NCBI RefSeq assembly: GCF_015354245.1 | Contig: NZ_JADKYZ010000005.1 | Coordinates: forward strand, 248,001-312,000 | From: Diaphorobacter caeni | Lineage (GTDB): Bacteria; Pseudomonadota; Gammaproteobacteria; Burkholderiales; Burkholderiaceae_C | Length of the DNA stretch: 64,000 bases | Direction: 5' to 3' | Part shown: piece after piece, positions 6,757 through 60,072 of the stretch | How positions within the stretch are numbered: the first letter of the stretch is position 1 | How the letters are laid out: the number at the start of each line of letters is the position of its first letter | Program-made: the position numbers and the translations under genes | The notes under the pieces: generated by a model | What the model was told of the DNA's origin: nothing | Seen by the model: only the letters and a program-made list of their open reading frames with translations | The model's database searches: none

Positions 6757-6938
6757 GGCGGAGGCCGGGACTGCCCCCGGCGGGGCAATCACTTTTTGCT
6801 TGCGCGCAAAAAGTAATCAAAAACGCGCTTTTCAATACCTCCGGCGGAACTCGCTTTGCGCTGCGCGCTCCGCTCGGACAACCGCCGGAAGTCAGACTGG
6901 AAGAGGTGGTTGCGGCACATCGCTTCGCTTGTGCCGGG
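6757..6938 (+). repeat. Structured dispersed repeat, copy A
   Basis: First of four copies in this window. Written in its own direction the element has four stem-loops: TGCCCC-CGGC-GGGGCA at 6772-6787, a 12-bp arm hairpin at 6788-6817 (core ACTTTTTGC / GCAAAAAGT), a long arm TCCGGCGG (6840-6847) with CCGCCGGA (6882-6889), and GGCACA / TGTGCC near 6914-6935. In the second hairpin the innermost pair is C-G, where two other copies have G-C: a compensatory change. Open frames across it are repeat-derived peptides, not genes. Confidence 0.85.
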
Positions 6939-7061
6939 GTGTTTGTGGAGTTGGGTTGGGTGACCCATGCCCGCTGCTCTTTTGAACGACGTTGATCCCG
7001 CAAGCAAATCAAAAATCCCGCAGCGCTAGCACCCCAACATCTCGCGAAGTCGCGAGATGCC
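6939..7061. other. Spacer between inverted repeat copies
   Basis: No gene seen. It contains a perfect small hairpin CTCGCGA-AG-TCGCGAG at 7041-7056. With copies A and B it makes up most of the 629-base gene-free stretch 6687-7315. Confidence 0.5.
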
Positions 7062-7244
7062 CGGCACGAGCGAAGCGAAGTGCCGAACACACCTCTTATG
7101 AAAACTCTAGCTCGCGGCGGTTGTCCGAGCGGCGCGCGCAGCGCAAAGCGAGTTCTGCCGCGGGTATTGAAAAACGCATTTTTGGTGCCTTTTTGGGCAA
7201 GACCAAAAAGGTACTCCGCCGCCGGGCGGAACTCCCGGCCTCTG
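7062..7244 (-). repeat. Structured dispersed repeat, copy B (inverted relative to A)
   Basis: The most diverged copy, yet every hairpin is preserved. The stem at 7215-7230 reads TCCGCC-GCCG-GGCGGA instead of TGCCCC...GGGGCA; the hairpin at 7185-7214 has CCTTTTTGG / CCAAAAAGG instead of ACTTTTTGG / CCAAAAAGT; the long arm is CGCGGCGG (7113-7120) with CTGCCGCG (7155-7162) instead of TCCGGCGG with CCGCCGGA. The changes are paired on both strands of each stem. Copies A and B face each other and could form a cruciform of about 490 bp. Confidence 0.8.
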
Positions 7245-9308: not shown

Positions 9309-9374
9309 GGTGTGCCCGTGAATGCAATGGGGTTGGCAAAGAAAATCCTTTTATGAGATGATTTTGGAAATTTT

Positions 9375-9391
9375 AATCTCGAAACGAGATT
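9375..9391. promoter_or_regulatory. Candidate LysR operator
   Basis: Perfect inverted repeat AATCTCG-AAA-CGAGATT in an AT-rich patch between the divergent LysR and MFS genes. The core contains T-N11-A. It lies 15 bases before the preferred MFS start (ATG 9406). Assignment to the neighbouring LysR protein is inference from position. Confidence 0.6.
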
Positions 9392-9405
9392 TAAACAAAA
9401 TTCAA

Positions 9406-10728
9406 ATGAAGGCCATTCCCTTGAACCCCTTGGATAACGCGACCGTCGACACCTCCGCCGTCCGGCCCAGTGGTTCGATGAAGCCATGGCCCATCGCCTT
9501 CGCAGGCATGGCCTGCCTCGCGATCGCCATGGGCATCGGCCGCTTCGCATTCACGCCGCTGCTGCCGATGATGCTGCACGACGGCACCCTTACGCTCGCC
9601 CAAGGCAGCTGGCTTGCCACCGCCAATTACCTCGGCTACCTTGCGGGCGCGCTCTTCGGCATGGCCCTGCCGTGGCTCGCGCCGCGCGCCTACGCCGTGC
9701 TCCACCCGGCGGTGCTCGCCAAGCTCGGCATCGCCTTCACGGCGATCTTCACCGTCGCCATGGCGCTGCCCGTGGTCTCGCCCACCCTGTGGACCGCGCT
9801 GCGGTTCGGCGCGGGCGTCTGCAGCGCGATCACGCTGCTCGGCATCGCCTCGTGGTGCATGGTGCGGCTGGCCGCGCTCGGCCGTCCCGAACTCGCCGCG
9901 CTGATCTTCGCGGGGCCCGGCCTCGGCATCCTGCTGACCGGCGTCATCGCCAGCGGCATGGTTGCCCTGCATTGGAAAGCCACCAGCGGCTGGCTGCTCT
10001 TCGCCGTGCTCGCCCTGCTGCTGTGCATCCCCATCTGGCCCCGGATCGCAGGCCGCGCGGCGCTGCCCAAGCCAGAAGGCGCAGCCCAGGCCGCCAGCCA
10101 GAGCACCCCGTCAGAGCCCGCAGCGCCTATTCCTGCCCGCGTGCTGCATGCGCTTGCCTATGGCCTCGCCGGCCTCGGCTACATCGTCTCCGCCACGTTT
10201 CTGCCCGTCATCGCCCGCACCGTGCTCCCCGGCAACTCCATCTGGGCCGACCTGTTCTGGCCCATCGCAGGTCTGGGAGCCGTCGTCGGCACGGTCCTGA
10301 GCACCCGCGCCAAACCCCAATGGGACCGCCGCTGGCTGCTCATCGTCGCCTACCTCGTGCAGGCCAGCGGCATCGCGCTGGGCCTGCTTTTGCCCACCAC
10401 ATTCGGATTCGCTCTGGGCAGCGTGCTCCTCGGCCTGCCATTCACCGTGATCACCTTCTTCGGCCTGCAGGAAGCCAGAAGACTCTGGCCGACATCGGCG
10501 GACAGCTTCGTGGCCCTCGTCAGCGTGCTCTACGGACTGGGCCAGATCGCAGGCCCGCCCCTGGTGAGCTGGCTGCTGCACCACACGGACAGCGGAAAGG
10601 GTTTTGAACACGGCCTGGCACTTGCGGCGATGTCGCTCGTCATGGGCGCAGCCATGTATGCCGCATCGATGTGGCTTTGGCCAAGGCACGAGCGCAGCAA
10701 AGTGCCGAACACCCCTCCCCCCAACTGA
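9406..10728 (+). CDS. YbfB/YjiJ-family MFS transporter
   Basis: About 440-residue, 12-segment inner-membrane transporter. The first membrane segment has the family motif MGIGRFAFTPLLPMM and is followed by SWLATANYLGYLAGAL. ATG 9406 is chosen; ATG 9478 (MKPWPIAFAG) would start right before the first membrane segment and is an alternative, while an earlier in-frame ATG at 9322 would overlap the palindromic operator. Substrate unknown; the divergent LysR gene suggests induced export or uptake of a small organic compound. The last 15 or so codons (RHERSKVPNTPPPN) and the stop codon are supplied by repeat copy C, so the C-terminus has been replaced or extended by the repeat. Confidence 0.85.
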   Translation: MKAIPLNPLDNATVDTSAVRPSGSMKPWPIAFAGMACLAIAMGIGRFAFTPLLPMMLHDGTLTLAQGSWLATANYLGYLAGALFGMALPWLAPRAYAVLHPAVLAKLGIAFTAIFTVAMALPVVSPTLWTALRFGAGVCSAITLLGIASWCMVRLAALGRPELAALIFAGPGLGILLTGVIASGMVALHWKATSGWLLFAVLALLLCIPIWPRIAGRAALPKPEGAAQAASQSTPSEPAAPIPARVLHALAYGLAGLGYIVSATFLPVIARTVLPGNSIWADLFWPIAGLGAVVGTVLSTRAKPQWDRRWLLIVAYLVQASGIALGLLLPTTFGFALGSVLLGLPFTVITFFGLQEARRLWPTSADSFVALVSVLYGLGQIAGPPLVSWLLHHTDSGKGFEHGLALAAMSLVMGAAMYAASMWLWPRHERSKVPNTPPPN

Positions 10729-10866
10729 CTTCCGGCGGTTGTCCGAGCGGAGCGCGTAGCGCGAAGTCGAGTTCCGCCGGAGGACTTCCAAGCGCATTTT
10801 TGATTACTTTTTGGGCAAGACCAAAAAGTGATTGCCCCGCCGGGGGCAGTCCCGGCCTCCGCCCTC
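10685..10866 (-). repeat. Structured dispersed repeat, copy C
   Basis: Inverted relative to copy A. Stems: GGCAC / GTGCC from 10685, long arm TCCGGCGG (10731-10738) with CCGCCGGA (10774-10781), hairpin 10803-10832 with core ACTTTTTGG-GCAAGA-CCAAAAAGT, and TGCCCC-GCCG-GGGGCA at 10833-10848. It overlaps the last 44 bases of the MFS gene and provides that gene's stop codon. It lies between two convergent genes. Confidence 0.85.
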
Positions 10867-59612: not shown

Positions 59613-59738
59613 GGGGGTGGATTGTCTCACCGGGGGTGAGACTGCGCGGCCTGGCTTCTGTATTGCTCCCTCTCCCGCTTGCGGGGGGGAGGGCGGGGGT
59701 AGGGGCTGGTATTTGGATTTCTTCTGCTCTGGGGTAGA

Positions 59739-59919
59739 GGGCAGAGGCCGGGACTGCCCCCGGCGGGGCAATCACTTTTTGGTCTTGCCCAAAAAGTAAT
59801 CAAAAATGCGCCTTCAATACCTCCGGCAGAACTCGACTGCGCGCTGCGCGCTTCGCTCGGACAACCGCCGGAAATCAGTTGGGAAGAGGTGTGTTCGGCA
59901 CTTCGCTTCGCTCGTGGCG
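59739..59919 (+). repeat. Structured dispersed repeat, copy D
   Basis: Same direction as copy A. Stems TGCCCC-CGGC-GGGGCA (59755-59770), ACTTTTTGG-TCTTGC-CCAAAAAGT core (59771-59800), TCCGGCAG (59822-59829) with CCGCCGGA (59865-59872; one mismatch), and CGGCAC near 59896 with GTGGCG (one mismatch). It has no coding capacity that I trust. Confidence 0.85.
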
Positions 59920-59923
59920 AAAA

Positions 59924-59949
59924 AAAAGCGCCGCAGTAGCGGCGCTTTT
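59924..59949. terminator. Bidirectional hairpin terminator next to repeat copy D
   Basis: AAAA-GCGCCGC-AGTA-GCGGCGC-TTTT, a perfect stem with A- and T-tracts. No gene ends nearby on the plus strand, so it may end transcription running through the repeat. Confidence 0.7.
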
Positions 59950-60072
59950 GGGAAAGTTGGCATCTTGTGGGGACGCTCGGAATATTTTGAATATGTTGTT
60001 TGAGTTGTGGCGTCTCCTCGGTCCCCTCGCTGCGTGCCGAGGCGCGCTTTCGAGTAAGGTGACTGTAATCGT

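Follow-up and report, generated by a model that had tools for sequence, protein, structure and literature searches.

The stretch of Diaphorobacter caeni DNA analysed here, 64,000 nucleotides long and referred to below as the window, contains four copies of an element of ~180 bp, which we call A, B, C and D. All four lie where the original prediction, made from the sequence alone, had placed them, and when they are set in one sense with short flanks their mean column identity is 80%. That prediction did not mention the minus-strand position of B and C, and it had not noticed that A and B together form a single fold-back composite of ~490 bp, one arm each. Each of the paired differences between copies that it listed is exact: in arm B, TGCCCC/GGGGCA is replaced by TCCGCC/GGCGGA and the A-T pair adjoining the TTTTTG stem by C-G, TCCGGC/GCCGGA is exchanged for CGCGGC/GCCGCG, and the innermost, loop-closing pair of the second stem is C-G in A and G-C in B, C and D. 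Arm B has a further paired change, from A...T to G...C, at the base of hairpin 2. The features of the locus are collected in Table 1.

Table 1. Arms, hairpins and spacer of the repeat in the window, numbered from the first letter of the window.
Feature	Position	Strand	Basis
Arm A, four-hairpin unit of the composite	6757-6938	+	Sequence, alignment, genome-wide unit search
Hairpin 1 of arm A, TGCCCC-CGGC-GGGGCA	6772-6787	+	Sequence, terminator-like scan, pair counts
Hairpin 2 of arm A, ATCACTTTTTGC/GCAAAAAGTAAT, with kept C·A mismatch	6788-6817	+	Covariation, linkage, cross-genus counts
Hairpin 3 of arm A, outer stem TCCGGC/GCCGGA plus inner stem	6840-6889	+	Covariation tests
Hairpin 4 of arm A, CGGCAC/GTGCCG	6913-6936	+	Structure-pair counts
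Composite spacer, kept in other composites	6939-7059		Sequence, composite alignment
Arm B, diverged inverted arm of the same composite as A	7060-7244	-	Alignment, genome-wide unit search
Copy C, lone arm	10685-10866	-	Alignment, gene-context analysis
Copy D, lone arm	59739-59919	+	Alignment, gene-context analysis

An alternative CCGGG/CCCGG stem overlaps hairpin 1 of arm A, and the spacer ends in a hairpin of its own (CATCTCGCGA...TCGCGAGATG, at ~7038-7059) that is conserved too. The surroundings of copy D hold structures of a different kind. Directly after it comes a hairpin that resembles a terminator, with runs of A and of T (59920-59950), and just upstream (59655-59701) lies a G-rich quasi-palindrome (CTCCCTCTCCCGCTTGCGGGGGGGAGGG...), another dispersed repeat with many matches in the genus relatives, five of them at ~166-bp spacing in the relative G001.

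A covariance model of the unit locates no fewer than 133 units in the 6.0-Mb genome, spread over 85 loci, a lower bound in that 150 of 3970 candidates were scored. Two units are present at 48 of these loci, and in 47 of the 48 doublets they are arranged plus-minus and inward-facing with hairpin 1 outermost; the sole exception to this order is an overlapping weak pair. The gap between the two units is 115-127 bp in 39 of the 48. The element had been described as dispersed, and it does occupy many places in the genome, but most units sit in inward-facing pairs, and the sites recur in a sister species. Conservation drops sharply at the outer edges of the consensus, and the arms form imperfect inverted repeats. 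Among the loci picked initially for their likeness to A, 25 unit groups are composites and 15 appeared lone, and a diverged second arm was later found in three of the latter (L006, L014 and L025). These three loci hold a second subfamily with longer arms that resemble those of other genera (L025:690-926, and likewise at L006 and L014), each paired with a normal arm.

The alignments used below are defined as follows. The composite alignment is without L001, L002 and L040, and the later copy alignment is also without L041, L052, L060 and L067; the unit alignment is without six loci from other genera (L047, L048, L049, L058, L059 and L066). The 92-unit alignment is without L025_690, which belongs to the other subfamily, and the 61-unit alignment consists of 59 of 60 representatives plus two window arms, one of which replaces L003:1006-1182.

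The stems stay paired while their sequence changes, as had been claimed from the four window copies. Against a tree-aware null, a short version of our own of the R-scape idea applied to 92 units with 150 simulated alignments, five Watson-Crick stem pairs across hairpins 1, 2 and 3 reach E 0.000, a sixth stem pair reaches E 0.033 and a C·A to A·C exchange within hairpin 2 reaches E 0.013. The proposed check by covariance model and R-scape-like null thus finds stem pairs in hairpins 1-3 above the null. Two non-stem column pairs, 48-52 (sites in the hairpin-2 loop, which change as a block) and 19-35, are also at E 0.000, and block exchange therefore contributes. Shuffled and slid controls agree with the tree-aware result: in the 61-unit alignment 95.9% of cells are paired compared with 88.5% after shuffling, and covariation is 0.220 compared with 0.091 for shuffled and at most 0.044 for slid partners, while one of the five measures in this alignment, that of further pair types, is not above the shuffles (22 vs 24.2). 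Changes on both sides are seen in 16 of 35 pairs, or in 13 of 29 when helix 1 is excluded, two arm kinds being one base out of register in hairpin 1 in these 61-unit counts. One-sided changes amount to three cells in helices 1-5 versus seven in hairpin 4, which pairs less well (92%, with some G·U cells).

Linkage separates stem partners from their surroundings. Partners 29, 47 and 49 nt apart have a linkage of 1.0, a value attained by no non-stem column pair of like distance class, and the sites lying between them are linked to the stem at 0.04-0.68, mostly below 0.3. Since the intervening sites are less linked than the stem partners, we reject the idea that simple block gene conversion alone produced the paired changes. 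The mismatch cells of 24 stem pairs in 92 units are 91 A·C, one G·T, 25 C·T and nine others, and a single hairpin-2 pair, A·C in 89 of the 92 units, carries 89 of the 91 A·C cells. This mismatch is retained through paired changes, and its neighbouring positions change in pairs. The claim of selection on an RNA or DNA structure rather than on sequence therefore holds in part: the structure is kept, but the double changes occur almost without intermediates, so that one-step template switching spread by gene conversion also fits. Two features speak for selection being at work too, namely the retained A·C mismatch and a linkage that singles out stem partners, and the rarity of wobble-type mismatches on either strand, bar one position, leans towards pairing as DNA over pairing as RNA.

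Arm A alone, folded as DNA, gains only modestly over its shuffles (z -1.8; 6 of 200 shuffles equally good), and its predicted minimum-energy fold is without the outer stem of hairpin 3. The whole composite is predicted to fold best as one A:B rod, with z -22 as RNA and z -19 as DNA. Across 21 composites the two arms of a composite correspond to each other no more closely than randomly chosen arms (0.773 vs 0.772, p 0.3), and in view of this lack of coevolution it is apparently the local hairpins that are maintained, and not the A:B rod; selection on the long rod is not supported. Given the very good predicted fold of the composite, the rod could matter.

The hairpin 1-2 core extends far beyond this genome. 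A search of related genomes, as had been suggested, found the unit in all five genus relatives, and a plasmid search returned one record, at 78.6%, from Diaphorobacter sp. HDW4B. Of 150 genomes of the order, counting that of D. caeni, 20 have the core pattern and none its reversed control, and the pattern occurs in at least 117 stretches of named contigs; among the matches listed, two of 80 are chance hits in coding sequence. Named holders include Polaromonas, Variovorax, Acidovorax, Rhodoferax, Thiobacillus, Caballeronia, Undibacterium, Rhodocyclaceae and Neisseriaceae, all of which we take to be Burkholderiales in the GTDB sense. Ten stretches of viral contigs (L255-L264) also carry the pattern. 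When two cores lie within 1.2 kb of each other they face inward in 11 of 11 cases. The specific pattern of hairpin 3 has no match outside its own genome among 274 genomes of the class, and from sequence comparison its exact form looks genus-specific; a profile search detects related arms in other genera.

Pairing is maintained across these genera at positions not fixed by the search pattern. At such positions 80-97 of 98 cores are paired, where shuffles reach maxima of 45-71, and up to four pair types are seen; at two positions with fewer cores the counts are 94 of 97 and 84 of 86. These counts use 98 of 121 rows, one per locus and with distinct cores, viral contigs included and L163 and L186 excluded. 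The exception is outer position 1 of hairpin 2, where 43 of 98 pair against a shuffle maximum of 35. In a set of 104 cores, which still holds the two coding chance matches (L163 and L186), this position is A·C or C·A in 55, T-A in 36, G-C in eight and C-G in three; G·T is found there in none of the 104, and in one of 98 in the second core set. In the four outward pairs of hairpin 1, G·T is a little commoner than A·C across genera (15 against nine). A mismatch also matters in the E. coli REP stem, where TnpA_REP is reported to contact conserved mismatches whose correction impairs activity (PMC8266576, in the text available), and by analogy this contact hints at a role for the mismatch kept in hairpin 2, as a lead rather than as a test.

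Double hairpins of similar appearance turned up in Clostridia (for example Pseudoflavonifractor sp. An184) and in a Nitrospirales MAG (L177, L142, L151, L208 and L196). They either agree with the element at bases that the search pattern does not specify or resemble it in layout; we do not claim them as homologs, given that the pattern itself selected part of the likeness.

All three sites of the window, namely those of A/B, C and D, are occupied by units in the sister species G003 and in G005. The relative G001 has two tandem units at the A/B site, a partial unit at D and none at C, and G002 has no unit at any of the three, its aligned blocks lying ~85, 46 and 105 bp apart. Identity around the unoccupied sites is 70-82% in G002 and 73-82% in G001, too diverged for target duplications to be read. 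The G002 match restarts exactly at the end of copy D and so marks the inner edge of the unit. Units are also seen in G001 in direct tandem arrays (L045, C1:3259230-3259879) with a period of ~215-235 bp, and not as inverted pairs.

To this we can add a larger set of 14 distinct sites of the D. caeni genome, the three window sites included, 13 of which are located in G003 DNA; L108:4828 is the site without a location there, and L113, which repeats window site D, is not counted. All 13 are occupied in G003. Eleven are located by both flanks and two by one, and the located flanks are 80.6-93.1% identical. One of the 13 holds a composite collapsed to its tips and one a truncated arm. The collapsed composite (L104:14091-14181) is reduced to ~90 bp with its two outer tips left, as expected from deletion between inverted repeats. 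Eleven of the sites yield 14 orthologous unit pairs, a set without the collapsed composite, the partial L109:5387 and arm B, which is truncated in G003. Their identity is 74-94% (mean 0.826), slightly higher than that of non-orthologous cross-genome pairs (mean 0.803, permutation p 0.03), and the mean identities within each genome, 0.825 and 0.803, are no higher than that between orthologs. The nearest relative of a unit is its ortholog in one of 28 cases and comes from the same genome in 20 of 28, where 13.5 are expected (p 0.04), a modest clustering. Site-specific ancestry has thus been nearly erased, with a modest genome-wide likeness in its place, and as the cause of this exchange from site to site we infer gene conversion.

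The element prefers the ends of converging genes. With a simple codon-based caller applied to 13 stretches fetched for holding elements, and with their other gene pairs as the baseline, we found convergent flanks at 13 of 23 element loci and at 28 of 200 other gene pairs (odds ratio 8, p 1.4e-5), and divergent flanks at two of the 23. In an earlier scoring 19 of 40 groups passed, of which 14 were convergent and none divergent, and three non-passing groups appeared divergent. Between codirectional genes, the earlier scoring gave three lone arms in each orientation (six before filtering; the two that passed the filter were both minus), and the later scoring gave three in the sense of the genes and two against it. 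In the window, an MFS transporter frame (9322-10728) extends at its 3' end into the hairpin-4 end of copy C, which supplies the last residues of the frame. A bias of P. fluorescens repeats towards gene ends has been argued to reflect the least harmful location (PMC2718517, available text), and by analogy the convergent-gene bias seen here may only mark the least harmful place.

That no named family fits, as first stated, agrees with the databases and literature that we searched: Rfam 15 gives no match at gathering score in the window, the best weak match at the locus being at E 0.11 and 22.3 bits against a threshold of 39, and no name for the element appears in the open-licence literature searched. 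In PMC3733652, none of five beta-proteobacterial terms occurs, nor does Faecalibacterium. The multi-copy intergenic repeats R6, R178 and R200 of P. fluorescens, some with inverted ends, have a tail-repeat-tail bias of their own (PMC2718517); they are likened to the element by descriptions and not by sequences, and the available part of that paper describes no covariation or orthologous-site analysis. The stem-loop sequence families of bacterial genomes (PMC2267715) are likewise foldable and intergenic and are likened to the element by description only; the beta-proteobacteria tabulated in the part of that survey available are Bordetella and Neisseria.

The closest layout is that of the REPINs and BIMEs of Pseudomonas and enterobacteria, which in the accessible text of PMC3116915 are likewise high-copy extragenic inverted doublets and singlets and for which compensatory hairpin changes are reported too. 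In common with REPINs, the element has two arms inverted about a spacer and a predicted rod fold. In contrast to them, its arm is ~180 bp long with four hairpins, and not a single palindrome of 20-60 bp with a GTAG-like foot: the four bases before the GCCGGG of hairpin 1 vary (GGAG, AGAG, GGGG, CGGT, GCTG). It differs further in the occupation of sites across species with exchanged sequence, and in the lack of repeats at a RAYT-like gene. One Y1_Tnp gene, strongly conserved and TnpA_REP-like, is present in this genome (L040:1132-1827) and in four of the five genus relatives (L265-L268), and it scores 75.3 bits against the RAYT family NF047646, for which the cut-off is 80. No unit at E<=10 lies beside this gene in any of the five loci of ~3.3 kb. 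Among the 150 genomes of the order, a RAYT-family match is found in 17 of 20 core-bearing genomes and in 75 of 130 others (p 0.025), and a match above the curated cut-off in 10 of 20 and 34 of 130 (p 0.037), a weak association whose statistics ignore phylogeny and genome size.

These observations bear on what the element might be. It could be a giant REPIN. It would then be non-autonomous, and the one TnpA_REP-like (RAYT) protein that the genome encodes would act in trans, recognising its folded single strands and moving them. The inward doublets and single arms resemble those of REPINs (PMC3116915, as available), the Y1 gene is RAYT-like, E. coli TnpA_REP reads conserved mismatches in the REP stem (PMC8266576, as available), and the weak co-occurrence of core and RAYT family keeps the idea open; we nevertheless consider it doubtful, given that the transposase gene stands apart from any unit at all five of its loci, that three of the 20 core-bearing genomes have no RAYT-family match, that an invariant GTAG foot is absent, and that neither the size of the arm nor the sharing of sites by two species is in its favour. 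The convergent-gene bias could be explained by selection on RNA, the element forming the 3' end common to convergent transcripts and serving either as a terminator in both directions or as an RNase barrier. In both arms hairpin 1 and the T-rich sequence after it score as terminator-like on the inward-reading strand, and on the minus strand the odd hairpin-2 pair would be U·G, U-A, G·U or G-C, each a standard pair in RNA, in 99 of 104 cores. However, the T-run lies several bases past the stem and belongs to hairpin 2, terminator-like sites in the window number four compared with 1.8 (sd 1.4) after shuffling, lone arms between codirectional genes occur in both orientations, and the remaining pairs of hairpins 1-3 show scant tolerance of wobble on either strand, all of which makes an RNA role improbable.

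Selection might also be dispensed with altogether, if template switching at the quasi-palindromes of a neutral repeat made the paired changes and gene conversion spread them. Template switching has been proposed as the source of compensatory changes in RNA genes, whose hairpins likewise show one-step compensatory changes without G·U intermediates (PMC8794818, available sections), and both the near absence of intermediates among the double changes of hairpins 1-3 and the nearly erased site-specific ancestry fit this mechanism. The element differs from those RNA-gene hairpins in being a dispersed intergenic repeat in which a mismatch is left uncorrected, and it is this mismatch, kept in nearly all aligned units of the genome and in over half of the cross-genus cores though its neighbours change in pairs, that together with the recurrence of the inward-facing layout throughout the order renders a wholly neutral origin unlikely. 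Least probable by far is that the element is a fossil MITE of the classic kind, belonging to a DDE transposon and ending in long terminal inverted repeats, which would be the arms. Such a fossil would have the discrete outer boundaries and inverted ends that we see, and the orthologous sites of G002 are unoccupied at all three window positions, but no parent element was found among the copies read (the dedicated search covered the Y1 family), and it is the structure and not the sequence that is conserved, a requirement that a terminal repeat recognised in double-stranded form would not have.

The reading that we prefer, and hold tentatively as plausible if short of probable, is that the element represents a large, old and apparently unnamed family of fold-back DNA repeats, constrained in structure, located at gene 3' ends and REPIN-like in layout. 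Its basic unit is the arm of ~180 bp with four local hairpins, two such arms often being opposed across a spacer of ~120 bp with hairpin 1 outermost. Copies at fixed sites would swap sequence by ectopic gene conversion and hairpin variants would thereby be shuffled among sites; stems would change in one step, through template switching or the import of a whole stem, and variants unable to form the local hairpins would be removed. The constrained form would be a folded DNA strand, either a cruciform or a single-stranded hairpin, and not a wobble-tolerant RNA, and a putative host protein may recognise this strand and read hairpin 2, mismatch included. The element would be useful, or tolerated, at a boundary indifferent to strand, where convergent genes have their 3' ends; this step and the identity of the putative protein are the least certain parts of the scheme. 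A bolder form of the same reading, speculative and on balance unlikely, is that of an order-wide "giant REP" in which a host protein, a domesticated HuH transposase present in single copy or some other, would read the folded strand with its kept mismatch, and in which fixed copies at 3' ends would rewrite each other so that the set evolves as one population.

Covariation is usually read as proof of a functional RNA, and here it is found in a dispersed DNA repeat almost without wobble intermediates. A single genome provides no fewer than 133 natural replicates of the element, placed at sites that recur in a sister species, and from these one could tell whether compensatory changes arise through selection on a folded form or through template switching and gene conversion. 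If a host protein does read the hairpins, this would provide a mechanism for a large and unnamed layer of gene-end architecture in Burkholderiales.
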